From: Polystyrenella longa
Lineage (GTDB): Bacteria > Planctomycetota > Planctomycetia > Planctomycetales > Planctomycetaceae
NCBI RefSeq assembly: GCF_007750395.1
Contig: NZ_CP036281.1
Coordinates: 3,061,001 to 3,125,000 of the forward strand
Reading direction: 5' to 3'
DNA length: 64,000 bases
Below the pieces are notes generated by a model. That model was not told where the DNA came from, made no database searches, and worked only from the letters and a program-made list of their open reading frames with translations. Every line of letters starts with the position of its first letter. Position 1 is the stretch's first letter. Shown here one piece after another: positions 55,067-62,388 of this stretch. The position numbers were made by a program, and so were the translations under genes.

Positions 55067-55630
55067 TCAGTCTGCTTCCATAAAGGCGTAGCAGAGAACG
55101 TGTGACATAATGAAGAAGCTGTCTTCAAGATGCCCCATGTGATTGGAGGGCAATGTGAGTGGAATGTCGACGAGGTCTTTCAGTTTGCCCCCATCACCCG
55201 TAGTCAGACCGACGGTAGTGACACCGATTTCATTCGCGTATTCGGTGGCTCGCAGCACGTTAGCGCTATTGCCGGAACCGCTGATCGTGATCAACATGTC
55301 CCCTTTGACGGCGAAGTTTTTGAGTGGTTCCAGGAAGACGATGTCATACCCGACATCGTTAGCATAGGCCGAAAGGGTCGACATGCTGTCGGTCAGACCG
55401 ATCATTTTGAAGCGTTTCTTTTTCTGGTAAGAAGCGCCTTTGACAATGTCGACGACCATCTGTGAAGCGATCGAAGCGGAACCACCGTTGCCGCAAATGT
55501 AGATAGTCTTGTCGTTGTCGCGAACTTCTCGCATTTTCGCGATGGTCTGACCCAGCTTTTCGCGGTCGAGTTTAGGAAGAAGTTCGGTCAATTTGCTCAG
55601 GTAATTTTCTGCGAATGCAGTATCAGACAT
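55067..55630 (-). CDS. SIS-domain sugar phosphate isomerase, GmhA-like
   Basis: 187 residues. CGNGGSASIASQMVVDIVKG is the GmhA/SIS phosphate-binding region. ITISGSGNSANVLRATEYAN is the second SIS loop. The canonical GmhA zinc ligands near the first helix (His/Glu) are not evident, and the end motif HMGHLEDSFFIMSHVLC has Glu where GmhA has Gln. It likely isomerises a ketose phosphate to a heptose phosphate or similar. It is in the same direction as the HldE-like kinase and HAD genes upstream. Confidence 0.82.
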   Translation of the reverse strand: MSDTAFAENYLSKLTELLPKLDREKLGQTIAKMREVRDNDKTIYICGNGGSASIASQMVVDIVKGASYQKKKRFKMIGLTDSMSTLSAYANDVGYDIVFLEPLKNFAVKGDMLITISGSGNSANVLRATEYANEIGVTTVGLTTGDGGKLKDLVDIPLTLPSNHMGHLEDSFFIMSHVLCYAFMEAD

Positions 55631-55818
55631 GGTTTCGGATCCTTTTGGCCTGCTGGGCCGGGACTGAATTATGTAATCGACAACAAACGGTGGTTATCGA
55701 GAATAGACCAGTAAGAAATGACGTCCAAAGAAGCCATGAACTTTTATTGGTAATTGATGCTGTTTATATGTTGTGACGCGAATCGGAACAAGTGCGAGGC
55801 AGAACCCGCCAGTCAGCT

Positions 55819-56856
55819 TTACGATTCGTTTTGTGATTTCCACATGATCAGGCGTTCGCTTACCTGTTCCTGCGATGCTGTTCCAGTAGTGCCCAGTTGT
55901 TTAACAGTGATCGAAGCGACCAGCATACCGACGAGCGCAGCTTCCGGGAGAATTGCCCCCGAGGCCAGAGTCAGTACTAATCCAGCGGAGACACTGTCGC
56001 CCGCGCCAGTGGTGTCGACAGGACCTTCCAGTTTAATCCCCGGGATTGAAGTCAATTCAGGATCGCTGACGATAATACCATTCGCTCCGCGTGTGACACA
56101 AATGGGAGCATTCGCCGTGTTTCTTAATCGTGGGATTGCCTCTTCCAGTTGAGTCAGCTCCACCTGATCGCCCGGTAGCGGATTTTCGTGACCGACCGCT
56201 TCAAATTCGTTCGGTTTGATGATCATGTTGCGGAAGTGATGGATATATCGCCTCGAATCCGCATAGAAGATGACATTCGGGTTATTCTCCGCCCGTTCAG
56301 CCAGAGCGTCCCGCGTTTCCGCCGTCAATACGCCGCAATTCTCTTCCTCCACTTGATCGAGAACGATAACGGCATCGAGTTCTGGCAACAGTCGATCGAG
56401 GACTTCCAATGCTTCATTGACCAACCGCTGAGTCATCGTTTTACGATTTTTAGTGTCGTATCGCTCATGTTCACCTTCGAGTCCGGGAACGTCTTTATTG
56501 AGCGGCTTGAGATAGGTCGGGGTCATCAGGTTGGCCGATTGGATCAGCCCTTCTGTATTACATCCACGCCGATTGAGTTCTTTTTTCAGATCGTAACCCT
56601 GTCCATCATCACCTACGACCCCAATGGCGAACAGTTCACCGGCACCTAATGCCGCCAGATTATTGACGATGGTTCCGGCCGCACCGGGAGCGTTTCGAAT
56701 GTCGACGACCTGATGCGCGGTCTTACCGGTTTCGATACTCTTTTCGGCAAGTTGAGGATCCGTTACCAGGTAACGGTCCAGGAAATAGTCACCGAGCACA
56801 GCAATCCGGCGGGAGCCAAACTTGCCTAGCAGTTCTTCCAGTCGTTCCGTTTCCAT
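55819..56856 (-). CDS. HldE N-domain-like (PfkB) sugar-phosphate kinase
   Basis: 345 residues from the ATG at 56856; a TTG ten codons upstream is possible. RRIAVLGDYFLDRYL, then RNAPGAAGTIVNNLAALGAG, GPVDTTGAGDSVSAGLVLTL and ASITVKQLGTTGTASQEQV identify the RfaE1/HldE kinase domain. There is no nucleotidyltransferase C-domain. HldE kinases make heptose-1,7-bisphosphate from heptose-7-phosphate. Context with a GmhA-like isomerase and a HAD phosphatase points to a heptose-like sugar route. Confidence 0.86.
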   Translation of the reverse strand: METERLEELLGKFGSRRIAVLGDYFLDRYLVTDPQLAEKSIETGKTAHQVVDIRNAPGAAGTIVNNLAALGAGELFAIGVVGDDGQGYDLKKELNRRGCNTEGLIQSANLMTPTYLKPLNKDVPGLEGEHERYDTKNRKTMTQRLVNEALEVLDRLLPELDAVIVLDQVEEENCGVLTAETRDALAERAENNPNVIFYADSRRYIHHFRNMIIKPNEFEAVGHENPLPGDQVELTQLEEAIPRLRNTANAPICVTRGANGIIVSDPELTSIPGIKLEGPVDTTGAGDSVSAGLVLTLASGAILPEAALVGMLVASITVKQLGTTGTASQEQVSERLIMWKSQNES

Positions 56857-56945
56857 GCGCGGGGGAACCCACTCTAAATATCTCAAGCTGTTTAGTTAGA
56901 TAATCGTCCCCTGCCAAGAAGTTGACCGGGACCTGTTCGAAGACC

Positions 56946-57836
56946 TTATTCTTTCCAGAGGTATTTGAACAAGGTGTCGATCTGCTGGTAGTCGGGAATG
57001 ACGATGTGGGCACCGACACCGATGAGTCGGGTCCGTTTCCATTCATCAACGGAACCATCCTTCGCCGATTCGTTACTAGCCACGGCAATGGCGGTTCCGC
57101 CTGCTTCGTGAATGTTGTCGATCTCAACGAAGCCGTCGCCAAAGCCGATCAGATATTTCCCTTCGACGTTGTTCTCACGCAGAATACGTTCGATAACCAT
57201 CTGCTTGGAGAAACTTTTGTAATCGTCCTGGGCACCGTAGATATGAGGGCCGAAGTATTTGTCTACCTGTAACAGTTCACACTCTTCGCGAACGAAATTC
57301 TCATCCGTTCCCGAGGCAAGGAAAACTTCGACGCCGCGATCTATTAGACCTTGCAGCACTTCGAATGAACCGGGGACCAACATTTCGCGAGGATCGGCTT
57401 TCCCATTGCGGAGGTCTTCCCGACGAGACGTAATGCGTTCCATCAGCAGATCGTGGTATTTGTGTTTGTAGAATGAGGGGTCTTCGGCTTTGCCGCCCCG
57501 TTTTTCAATCTCTTCGACGAGTCGAATCATCTGGTAAATTGTCTGTTTACCATTGAGTTGCATGACAAAATCGTAAGAGATTTTGCTCAATTCTTCCTCG
57601 GACTCACTGGTTCCGGTTTTTTGAAGTTCCTCGATCATCATCGGAACCATCACTTCGGGCCAGCCTTCACGCACACAGCTCAGGGTGCCGTCGAAATCGA
57701 AAACAGCGAAGCGAGGTGGATCGGCCAGATCGACGTCGTGCACAATCTCGACAGAGGAATCGGGTAGGAAACGGGTTTCGCCCACTTCTTTAACCCGGAG
57801 TTTGTAATCAGCTTCATGGGAGGCATCGGCAGACAT
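56946..57836 (-). CDS. HAD-family phosphatase
   Basis: 296 residues. A ~40-residue N-terminal extension precedes motif I FAVFDFDGTLSCVR. The cap domain is helical (residues ~65-160). Motif II is FLASGTDE, motif III includes SKQMVIERIL, and motif IV is IGFGDGFVEI. It hydrolyses a phosphate monoester. Its position before the HldE-like kinase (89 bases) suggests it takes the place of GmhB, to which it is not closely similar. It is unusually long for that job. Confidence 0.86.
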   Translation of the reverse strand: MSADASHEADYKLRVKEVGETRFLPDSSVEIVHDVDLADPPRFAVFDFDGTLSCVREGWPEVMVPMMIEELQKTGTSESEEELSKISYDFVMQLNGKQTIYQMIRLVEEIEKRGGKAEDPSFYKHKYHDLLMERITSRREDLRNGKADPREMLVPGSFEVLQGLIDRGVEVFLASGTDENFVREECELLQVDKYFGPHIYGAQDDYKSFSKQMVIERILRENNVEGKYLIGFGDGFVEIDNIHEAGGTAIAVASNESAKDGSVDEWKRTRLIGVGAHIVIPDYQQIDTLFKYLWKE

Positions 57837-58082
57837 GAAAGATAAATACCTGTGACGACGGAGAAGGAAGAATTCATGGCCACCGGCATTAAAACAATAC
57901 CGGCAGTGACGTGTAGAAGAGCATAAGTCATGCTTTCCAAGGCCCGATTCTATAGGTCACCGATGCTGAATGGTAGTGAATCAGTCCGTTTTCAGCCCTT
58001 GGGCGATGTATTTCGGACGTGGATACCGTTTAAAGGGACGCATTTCATCAAAACTGAACAGACTGGCTGAATTAGGAGCCTG

Positions 58083-58622
58083 TCACGAGGTAATTGCCTG
58101 CTGAACCAGCTGCAGGTAATCAGGACGGTCTCCTGCATTCTTATGTTGATACCGATATAAAACTTGACCAGTTCGAAGAACGATGACACCGGGCATCTGA
58201 CGAACGTTCCCTTCCGGTTTGCCAACACCATGACCTTCGAAGATACAGGCTTTCATTCCATTCCAGAGAACAGACGGTCCCATCAACTGAGCAAGCCCGC
58301 CCGTCCCGAATTGGAAGTGTTGATACAAGATTCTTGCTGGATCACTTACGGCAATGGCTTCGGGGAGCTGATATTTTTTAAGCATCGATTGCAACTCTTC
58401 CTGCTCGCTCATGCTGACGACTACAATTTTCGTATTCATGTCCCCCAGGTCGCCTTCGATTTTGTGAAGATCGGCCAAGGCCTGACGACAAAACGAGCAG
58501 CCTGAATGCCGTAAAAACACAATCAAGAGCGTCTGATCTTGTGACAGATCCGCCAGAGATTGCCCTGTTGAAGTCATTACTGACGGAATCGAATCAGAAT
58601 TCAGGGGGGCTGTTTCTGTCAT
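58083..58622 (-). CDS. Peroxiredoxin-like (AhpC/TSA) redox protein
   Basis: 179 residues. TLLIVFLRHSGCSFCRQAL has a C-x2-C active site in thioredoxin-fold position, like the PRXL2/SelL-type peroxiredoxin-like family. VLWNGMKACIFEGHGVGKPE and GVIVLRTGQVLYRYQHKNAG follow as in that family. It would reduce peroxides or act as a thiol oxidoreductase in the cytoplasm. It is monocistronic. Confidence 0.85.
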   Translation of the reverse strand: MTETAPLNSDSIPSVMTSTGQSLADLSQDQTLLIVFLRHSGCSFCRQALADLHKIEGDLGDMNTKIVVVSMSEQEELQSMLKKYQLPEAIAVSDPARILYQHFQFGTGGLAQLMGPSVLWNGMKACIFEGHGVGKPEGNVRQMPGVIVLRTGQVLYRYQHKNAGDRPDYLQLVQQAITS

Positions 58623-58810: not shown

Positions 58811-60946
58811 TTACATGCGAATGTAAATCTTATTCTTCTCGAGGCTACGGATGACGACGTACATCAGGTACATACCGATCACCCAGCTGCTCCAACCGTA
58901 CCACGCGGGAGGATCCCTGGGGACGAAGTTCTTGACTGCCCCACAAACCAATTCAAAAAGTACGTAGCTGGCAAGCGCGTTCGTCCCCCAGGTTCGGAAG
59001 AGTCCAATCTGGAATCCCCAGATATCGGTGAAGATATAAAACAAGGTGTATACGAACAGGGAAAATCCACCAGCGAATATCAGGTAAGACATCGTTCCTG
59101 CCCGTTGGCTCATCATCCAGGCATTCCAGTAGAATTCATATCGTGGCTGGTACTGCACAATTTCTTCGTTCTGCTCATCTGGTGAATCAAATGGGTTCCG
59201 ACCGATAAAGTCAGTCCAACTCATGCCGCTGAGTTTCTCCATGCGTTTTTCGTTTGGAATAACGGGATCGATGGCGAGTTTCAGGTCGCGGCGTTCTCCT
59301 GTTGGAAGCTTAGTCCACTCAATCTCGACGAGCGTTTCCAAGTGATCGGTCAACATCTTCTGGGCCTGTTGGCTCTGACGCAGGGTGTCAAATTCTTCTC
59401 CCTGCGTTGCAGCCAGTTCCGTGGCTATCTTTTTATTGATCTCTTCGGTTGGCGTGTCCGCTTCCGGATCCAACCCCGCTTCGGTAAGCAGTCGGTTGGT
59501 GATTTCGTTCTTAATTGCCGTTTCCTGTGTGGTGAAATCAGCAGTAAGAGATTCCAATGTGGCCTTCTCCGTCTGGTAGCTATCGTAGTAAACCGAGTCC
59601 ATTTCAAGGTAAGGCACTTTGGCTTCCTGAACCTGCTCTCGCAACTCTACGATTTCAGCACCGGGTTCAGCTTGAAAAGTTTCGTTCACTTTCTTGTTGA
59701 TAGCATCCGTCGGTTTGTCATTTTCAGGATCGAGTTCCGCCTCCACCATGAATTGATTCTGCAGTTCTAACTTCCGATCGCGCTCGGCTAGAATCAACGA
59801 TTCTACCTTGCGAGCCAAGTCTGTTTTGGTTTTTAGCTGCTCGTCGTTTAAGCGAATAATCTCTGGAGTGAGTGCCTCCTCGTACCGTTCCAGACGTTCC
59901 CGCAACTCCAGTAATTCCGGAGAGGGACTTGTTTCGAATTCATTAATCACTTCCACGTTGAGGTATTTCGGAGGGTACTGCAACTCGGGATCTAAGCCCG
60001 CTTCTACCATCTTTTCATTAACGAGAGCTTGTTTGTATTCAAACCCTTTGTTTGTGTATTCAGTTCGTAGCTCACCCACGACTTTGTTGAAAGGTTTCAG
60101 CTTTTCGTTGAGTGGTTTAACCGCTTCACCTGTGACATGATTCACATGATCGCGATCTTTGTATTCGGTGTCTTTCAGAACTTGCATTTCCTTGGGGGAA
60201 ATATCCCAGAGTCGGGCAGGCCAGGTAATCATCCAACCGAGCAGCATAATGACGATTGACCAGAGAAACATCTTGACCAAATTAGGGTGCTTATGTTTCT
60301 CTCGAGCATCTTGTACCCAGTCGCAGGTAATCGTTCCCAGCAGGGCCGGAGTTGTCCAGGTAAGGAACCCGAGCGGACCACCATCAATCGCATTAGGGCT
60401 GGAGTTCGCATACAGGAAATACCCGTAATAACAAGCGAGATGGTGAGCCAGGGCACAGGTAATCATCACAATAATTCGAGTAAGAACGCTGGTTCGCATC
60501 CAAGGCAGAATCCAGAGTGACGTCAAGGCAATGTGCCCGAGTGTCTGGAGCCAAACCCGCTTCATGGGTGTCTCGAAGATTTCCCAGAATGTCATCTGGG
60601 TAAGTTGATCCCAACTGTTGGCTACACGACCGATGTGATAAACCGAAAAAGTGACCACCATCAATCCCAAAATACGACGGACGACTCGCCAGTGTGCTGC
60701 AGTCAGCCCTCCCTCGTGTCGTTTCCGACCAAAAGAAAGCCGAAAAGCAAAACCTACCGCAAAAATAAAGTGCGGCATGATCGTATCGGCGTACGAGCAA
60801 GAGATGTTGTGGTGCAACAGGACCGGATGAACAAACGTCTTATACGATCCCATATAATTCACAAGGAACATTCCCAGAATCGTGTAACCACGAAACTGGT
60901 CCAGTGAATGAATACGATTTGGAAGGGGTTGCGATGCTGTCGCCAT
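58811..60946 (-). CDS. HGSNAT-like membrane acyltransferase with inserted triple repeat
   Basis: 711 residues. The N-terminus RIHSLDQFRGYTILGMFLVN is the start signature of the heparan-alpha-glucosaminide N-acetyltransferase/DUF5009-type family. About six to seven membrane helices lie in residues 18-245, and two or three more lie at about 617-700. Between them sits a large soluble insert (about 255-600). Residues 294-554 form three repeats of exactly 87 residues, each with an EAxLDPE motif (315, 402, 489), charged and helical. The soluble insert makes the protein about 1.8 times the usual length. The enzyme probably acetylates an envelope glycan; the insert's function is unknown. Confidence 0.85.
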   Translation of the reverse strand: MATASQPLPNRIHSLDQFRGYTILGMFLVNYMGSYKTFVHPVLLHHNISCSYADTIMPHFIFAVGFAFRLSFGRKRHEGGLTAAHWRVVRRILGLMVVTFSVYHIGRVANSWDQLTQMTFWEIFETPMKRVWLQTLGHIALTSLWILPWMRTSVLTRIIVMITCALAHHLACYYGYFLYANSSPNAIDGGPLGFLTWTTPALLGTITCDWVQDAREKHKHPNLVKMFLWSIVIMLLGWMITWPARLWDISPKEMQVLKDTEYKDRDHVNHVTGEAVKPLNEKLKPFNKVVGELRTEYTNKGFEYKQALVNEKMVEAGLDPELQYPPKYLNVEVINEFETSPSPELLELRERLERYEEALTPEIIRLNDEQLKTKTDLARKVESLILAERDRKLELQNQFMVEAELDPENDKPTDAINKKVNETFQAEPGAEIVELREQVQEAKVPYLEMDSVYYDSYQTEKATLESLTADFTTQETAIKNEITNRLLTEAGLDPEADTPTEEINKKIATELAATQGEEFDTLRQSQQAQKMLTDHLETLVEIEWTKLPTGERRDLKLAIDPVIPNEKRMEKLSGMSWTDFIGRNPFDSPDEQNEEIVQYQPRYEFYWNAWMMSQRAGTMSYLIFAGGFSLFVYTLFYIFTDIWGFQIGLFRTWGTNALASYVLFELVCGAVKNFVPRDPPAWYGWSSWVIGMYLMYVVIRSLEKNKIYIRM
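59285..60067 (-). repeat. Three tandem 87-residue (261-bp) protein repeats
   Basis: Within the membrane acyltransferase, residues 294-380, 381-467 and 468-554 align with a fixed 87-residue period. Shared positions include (M/L)xEAxLDPE, P-x-x-x-(I/L)N-x-x-(V/I) and an ELRE/DTLR segment. DNA copies have diverged, so this is an old duplication under protein constraint. Confidence 0.85.
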
Positions 60947-61854: not shown

Positions 61855-62388
61855 ATGGATTTCAGTTCTCTGAATCGTCGTAGCTTTGTCACCAAATCCA
61901 TGGCTGCTTTCGGTGGCTTGGCTTTGGTTTCTGGTATTTCTCGCAAAGCTGAAGCTGGACACGGACATTGGGGCGGCGGATGCGGCTCTTATTCTTCTTG
62001 CAGCTCAATTTCTTCTTGCAGCTCTGTTTCTTACCAAGCTTGCTGTGCTCCTGAGCCCAGCTGTGGATGCAGCACTCCTGAGCCTAGCTGCTACGCTCCT
62101 GCTCAAAGCTGTGGTGCTCCTGCACCTAGCTGTGGCGGACACGTATCCAGCTGTGGTGCTCCTGCTCCTAGCTATGGTTGTGGCGCTCCTGCTCCTAGCT
62201 GTGGTTGTGGTGGTGGTTCCAGCTACGGAACTAGCTATGCACCATCTCACTCTGCTCCTGCAGCACCAGCAGCACCAGCTGCTCCAGCAGCTCCTCCAGA
62301 AGCACCTGCACCTCCGATGGGCTACAACGTCCGTCCGAACCGCTACCAGCGCGTAAGCTACCGCGTTCTGCGCGTTCTGGAACGCTAA
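61855..62388 (+). CDS. Tat-exported Cys-rich repeat protein
   Basis: 177 residues. A Tat signal (NRRSFVTKSMAAFGGLALVS) is followed by a Gly/His patch. Residues 43-118 hold 14 Cys in an array of about six short copies of a motif like APAPSCG/TPEPSCY (64-120). A low-complexity Ala-Pro tract follows (SAPAAPAAPAAPAAPPEAPA), and then a basic C-terminus (NRYQRVSYRVLRVLER). The pattern suggests an exported protein that could bind metal or form disulfide-linked surface structure. GGAAGGG gives a strong ribosome site and a terminator follows, so it is probably well expressed. No family was recognised. Confidence 0.8.
   Translation: MDFSSLNRRSFVTKSMAAFGGLALVSGISRKAEAGHGHWGGGCGSYSSCSSISSCSSVSYQACCAPEPSCGCSTPEPSCYAPAQSCGAPAPSCGGHVSSCGAPAPSYGCGAPAPSCGCGGGSSYGTSYAPSHSAPAAPAAPAAPAAPPEAPAPPMGYNVRPNRYQRVSYRVLRVLER

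Follow-up and report, generated by a model that had tools for sequence, protein, structure and literature searches.

A membrane acyltransferase of the TmAT superfamily has, in its ECL4-equivalent loop, a helical repeat that is real, old, and restricted to one lineage. The protein (P0001, 711 amino acids) is encoded at 58811..60946 on the minus strand of the window, by which we mean the whole 64,000-nucleotide stretch of Polystyrenella longa DNA that was analyzed; its open reading frame has an ATG start codon. We think it fairly probable that P0001 is a planctomycete TmAT that transfers acyl groups from acyl-CoA to a periplasmic acceptor, and that the arm in its ECL4-equivalent loop was built by tandem duplication and docks or selects the acceptor or a partner.

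The membrane body and its family

An earlier reading of the DNA letters alone (the sequence-only reading) had proposed that P0001 is an HGSNAT-like membrane acyltransferase. Its assignment to the HGSNAT/AT3 type is supported by its motifs, by the Pfam matches of its relatives, and by its top Foldseek matches. The defining residues of the TmAT superfamily have been described (PMC12423673), as has the active site of HGSNAT, with an oxyanion Asn and a His-Asp dyad (PMC11199644). In our alignment of P0001 with its relatives (alignment A1), P0001 has the DxxR motif of TMH1 (D16-Q-F-R19, which is near invariant), the FxxxxG motif of TMH2 (F60-IFAV-G65), and the RxxR motif of TMH3 (R87-VV-R90). Gly204 in TMH6 and Tyr661 in TMH9 are conserved as well; these two were placed by sequence, not by superposition. 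Asn286, His297, and Asp307 of HGSNAT are matched by N30, H45, and D54, with a His-Asp spacing that is one residue shorter. H45 (codon at 60812..60814, minus strand) is thus the proposed counterpart of the catalytic H297, as aligned with one gap. H45 is invariant in relatives and paralogues, and among the nearby histidines it alone is kept in the paralogues from the same genome. Apart from Y661, these residues lie in TM1-TM7 (residues 1-245; 60212..60946, minus strand). Y661 lies in TM8-TM10 (residues 607-711; 58814..59128, minus strand), which was delimited by alignment A1 and hydropathy and which also contains YWNAWMMSQRAGT. Judged by its sequence, the body fits the TmAT (AT3/HGSNAT) superfamily.

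P0001 itself has no match in Pfam and none in NCBIfam, and thus is not above the gathering cut-off of HGSNAT_cat (PF07786). Its shorter relatives match Acyl_transf_3 (3.3e-11), HGSNAT_cat (8e-6, or 2.4e-7 for L019), and DUF5009. For HGSNAT_cat, L019, L020, and L014 are above the cut-off of 22 bits, and the paralogue L011 scores 21.2 bits. Human HGSNAT aligned to residues 7-75 of P0001 with E = 0.005 (0.004 if the family profile was used), and HGSNAT is the best PDB match of P0001 both by sequence and by fold (PDB 8jkv, 8vkj). In a Foldseek search with the full P0001 model, HGSNAT took ranks 1 and 2 (probabilities of 0.99 and 0.93) and GWT1 took rank 5; the best E-value of 0.14 is not significant, since the full-length AlphaFold model, made with ten sequences, is poor in its membrane body, where pLDDT is low.

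Hydropathy analysis gave nine segments (residues 55-73, 88-106, 131-149, 154-172, 190-208, 223-241, 622-640, 657-675, and 681-699). TM1, near residues 15-33, falls under the hydropathy threshold yet is a predicted helix in the AlphaFold model, and we take it to be the known first transmembrane helix of the superfamily. If the N-terminus is inside, then the basic loops at 74-87 and 209-222 and the C-terminus are on the cytosolic side. The insert lies between membrane segments, as had been claimed, and more precisely between TM7 and TM8, on the membrane face where the catalytic His is placed; so it would be periplasmic, as would H45.

P0001 and HGSNAT (heparan-alpha-glucosaminide N-acetyltransferase; PDB 8jkv, 8vkj; PF07786) have in common the active-site Asn, His, and Asp, the DxxR motif, and the order of the transmembrane helices. 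Only HGSNAT has an N-terminal luminal beta-sandwich domain and an extra TM1, which are absent from P0001 (it has about 15 residues ahead of TM1), whereas only P0001 has a helical repeat in the ECL4-equivalent loop. The AT3 enzymes OafB and OatA (PF01757; PMC12423673) are like P0001 in that a TmAT core, with 10 TMs in those enzymes and probably also in P0001, is joined to an added extracytoplasmic part, which in OafB and OatA is thought to act in acceptor transfer (PMC12423673). OafB and OatA carry a catalytic SGNH domain as a fusion, whereas the addition in P0001 is a non-enzymatic-looking helical repeat within the core.

Three units with a period of 87 residues

The sequence-only reading placed three tandem 87-residue units at 59285-60067, which correctly corresponds to residues 294-554, and this repeat is borne out. 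Its EAxLDPE motifs begin at residues 315, 402, and 489, or exactly 87 residues apart. The self-alignment that had been suggested as a check gave a single outstanding lag: in an ungapped self-scan of P0001, a lag of 87 scored 183 (residues 305-444 against 392-531). A lag of 174 (twice 87) scored 82, and the next best lag was 32. Across 1,000 composition-preserving shuffles of the insert, the maximum score over all lags was 63, which rules out a chance repeat due to coiled-coil composition.

From the self-comparison and an alignment of the units, unit 1 is residues 286-372 (59831..60091), unit 2 is residues 373-459 (59570..59830), and unit 3 is residues 460-546 (59309..59569), all on the minus strand. 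They are preceded by the first part of the TM7-8 loop (residues 246-285; 60092..60211, minus strand), which is the first half of a 65-residue helix in the AlphaFold model (predicted at 251-315). They are followed by a conserved distal segment of the loop (residues 547-606; 59129..59308, minus strand; LAxDPVxP...GRNPF), which in alignment A1 is also present in relatives without the insert.

A shared core, KxxLxNxLMxEAxLDPExDxPTxEINKKIxExFxxxPGxELxxLR, is kept in all ten unit copies that we compared. Within P0001, the units are 22-30% identical in amino acid sequence over all 87 residues and 29-42% identical over a 52-residue core (40-42% for neighbouring pairs). At the DNA level, the units are 40-43% identical to each other, as compared to 62-66% for orthologous units in the sister species, which rules out a recent duplication of DNA. 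Because the units have diverged in sequence, the repeat is real but old.

The sister species (L001/L018) has all three units with a period of exactly 87 (self-score of 146 at lag 87), and there is no indel relative to P0001 across 596 aligned residues. Counterpart units are identical at 59-72% of residues. For the insert, pN is 0.22 and pS is 0.80, which is near saturation, and pN is well below pS in each of the three units. As the repeat is in register without an indel, with pS near saturation and low pN, it is older than the split of the species and is under purifying selection. This selection is weaker on the insert than on the membrane body: for TM1-7, identity to the sister species is 89% and pN is 0.07, so that nonsynonymous change is about three times faster in the insert.

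We ran AlphaFold on the full-length protein and on the insert alone, and both runs predicted nearly one pattern in all three units: a helix of 35-65 residues that ends at EAxL; an 11-residue LDPExxxPT loop; a helix of 13-14 residues; a break of 2-3 residues at PG; and then a further helix, of 13-29 residues. Local pLDDT in the units is mostly 78-94, and pTM is 0.47 in both models. The insert had been proposed to form a helical array reaching away from the membrane and to position a glycan or partner protein. The helical repeat is supported by the equal predicted helices in each unit, but a rod-like reach is not supported, with the pTM of 0.47, and the positioning role is hypothetical.

The insert is 35% charged and is rich in Glu, Leu, and Lys, with Trp and Cys nearly absent. 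Among solved (PDB) and viral (BFVD) structures, we found no significant fold match to the arm; its weak matches were generic long-helix proteins such as HlyD. When known helical repeat families from Pfam were compared to the 10 units, there were only weak matches of one member each (the best being DUF4142, E = 0.0079). A match of the unit profile to IF1/mS47 (E = 0.005) was read as a match of helix composition. Hence the profile and structure searches linked the unit neither to a repeat family already described nor to a fold already solved.

Copy number and loop lengths among relatives

The same type of insert is found in L011, a paralogue from the same genome (G000:C1:333170-335239; 55% identity to P0001), and in L007, from a metagenome-assembled genome. 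These have two units spaced 91 residues apart instead of three at 87. Both have units 1 and 2 only; unit 3 is absent or eroded, with a shorter stretch in its place (Glu/Lys-rich in L011). In a tree of the units, unit 3 falls outside all of the copies of unit 2 (57% support), which, at that support, favours loss of a unit in L011 and L007 (from three to two) over gain. The contig of L007 (PABI01000075.1) is labelled as Anaerolineaceae; its protein is nevertheless 64% identical to the planctomycete paralogue L011, so mis-binning is likely and the assignment of the bin is doubtful.

The sequence-only reading raised the prospect of 1-5 copies in planctomycete HGSNAT-like proteins. We found two or three copies within the genus and did not find one, four, or five. 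A ten-row profile of the unit found five copies in the P. longa genome (3+2) and zero in the other 391 planctomycete genomes sampled, and a search with the sequence of the insert found matches only in that genome and the sister species (among 170 genomes sampled from the order); as these searches sampled species and scored limited candidates per genome, they may miss rare copies.

To put the insert in context, we compared anchor-to-anchor distances in an alignment of 43 relatives, a few of which are redundant or truncated. The active-site loop ECL1 (25-27 residues) and the cytosolic loops (26-27, 11, 19-27, and 16) are near constant, whereas ECL4, the TM7-8 loop, ranges from 35 to 366 residues, ECL2 from 31 to 203, and ECL3 from 21 to 46. 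The ECL4 of P0001 is the longest, at 366, and several relatives have TM7-8 loops of 150-345 residues without the P0001 repeat. The suggestion that a soluble insert between the membrane halves is unprecedented therefore has to be dropped: across this planctomycete family, the TM7-8 loop is hypervariable. The arm of P0001 is the longest sampled instance of a family-wide habit and is a lineage-specific elaboration of it. At the other extreme are uncharacterised HGSNAT-like proteins of about 400 amino acids (L002-L006) from Gimesia and other planctomycetes. These are ~50-55% identical to P0001 in TM1-7 and 44-47% identical in TM8-10 and share the conserved distal ECL4, but their TM7-8 anchors are 63 residues apart (versus 366) and they lack the repeats. 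A literature search found no paper on the acyltransferase family of P0001 in planctomycetes.

Other long loops were seen in this comparison. L019 (G073) and L020, L027, and L037 (G151, G150, and G152) have ECL4 loops of 239-343 residues with unrelated sequences. In the latter three there is a borderline internal lag of 71, and the sequence differs from the P0001 repeat. Homology of the repeat to these four loops is unsupported: hhalign aligned no more than about the initial 60 residues, and its probabilities against the repeat insert were under 10%. Two other paralogues in the P. longa genome, L012/L015 (G000:C1:1016270-1018198) and L013/L016 (G000:C1:4241169-4242959), have long helical-looking inserts between TM3 and TM4 rather than between TM7 and TM8, giving ECL2 lengths of 203 (L012) and 164 (L013), and L065 (G096) has a similar TM3-TM4 insert. 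In other genera of the family, we saw tandem arrays of three TmAT-like genes (L070, G134:C19:1457800-1463800; L071, G144:C37:13800-18600), in which differing ECL4 lengths lie side by side.

Possible roles of the arm

In the mechanism that we favour, acyl-CoA (probably acetyl-CoA) would enter the membrane pore from the cytosol, and the acyl group would then be handed over near H45 and D54, where the pore opens into the periplasm; a sugar is the most likely acceptor. By position, the TM7-TM8 loop would be the ECL4 of HGSNAT, beside the acceptor cavity, and tandem duplication of a helical unit of ~87 residues would have lengthened it into a periplasmic arm. Lying outside of the conserved catalytic core, the arm would most likely dock or select either the polymer that accepts the acyl group or a partner in the periplasm. 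The strongest argument that the arm serves acceptors or partners, rather than the handling of acyl-CoA, is that elaboration is confined to the acceptor side. A broader and more tentative proposal is that one constant acyl-transfer core is combined with interchangeable periplasmic ECL4 or ECL2 arms that determine which acceptor or partner is used, with the arm being, in this case, a new helical repeat family that varies between two and three copies among paralogues.

The arm might instead be mainly for self-association (a dimeric or oligomeric coiled coil), or it might be a tether or spacer that reaches the outer membrane or the cell wall, with no direct role in acceptor choice. The charged, Glu/Leu/Lys-rich composition, the long predicted helices, and the weak matches to proteins such as HlyD would suit such a role, and HGSNAT is a dimer (PMC11199644). 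However, the contacts in that dimer are from ECL2 and ECL5, not ECL4 (PMC11199644), and a conserved LDPExDxPT loop and a PG break in every unit are atypical of a plain coiled coil; we view this role as rather unlikely. Near-neutral padding of a permissive surface loop, in which units are duplicated or lost with little function, seems to us improbable. It would be in keeping with the wide range of loop lengths in the family, the missing or eroded unit 3 of L011 and L007, and the threefold faster nonsynonymous change in the insert, but the insert has no indel between the sister species at saturated pS, pN is below pS in all three units, and the core is conserved in all ten copies.

It is also conceivable that the body is a degenerate TmAT that carries out no acyl transfer and merely anchors the arm in the membrane, as P0001 lacks a significant Pfam match and relatives in the same genome could supply the activity. 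We give this very little credence: P0001 has kept the residues of the acyl-CoA site and of catalysis, and the sister species shows strong conservation of TM1-7.

Acceptor choice by TmAT enzymes is largely an open question. A family whose cytosolic and active-site loops are near constant, while those next to the acceptor cavity range from tens to hundreds of residues, is a natural experiment on this choice, and an arm that is divisible unit by unit offers a handle for testing it.

Downstream of the acyltransferase gene (55067-58622 of the window, minus strand) are genes for a peroxiredoxin-like protein, a HAD hydrolase, a PfkB kinase, and a SIS-domain protein; the latter two resemble enzymes of heptose biosynthesis. 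The order of these genes is syntenic in the sister species (L064). They were not seen beside the paralogue or beside the more distant relatives that we checked (L002, L004, L008, and L009), so we rejected reading a pathway or an acceptor from the gene neighbours. On the plus strand, at 61855-62388 of the window, is a 177-amino-acid open reading frame with a Tat-like signal at its start and a low-complexity body that is rich in Cys, Ser, Gly, Ala, and Pro (CGAPAPSCG repeats).
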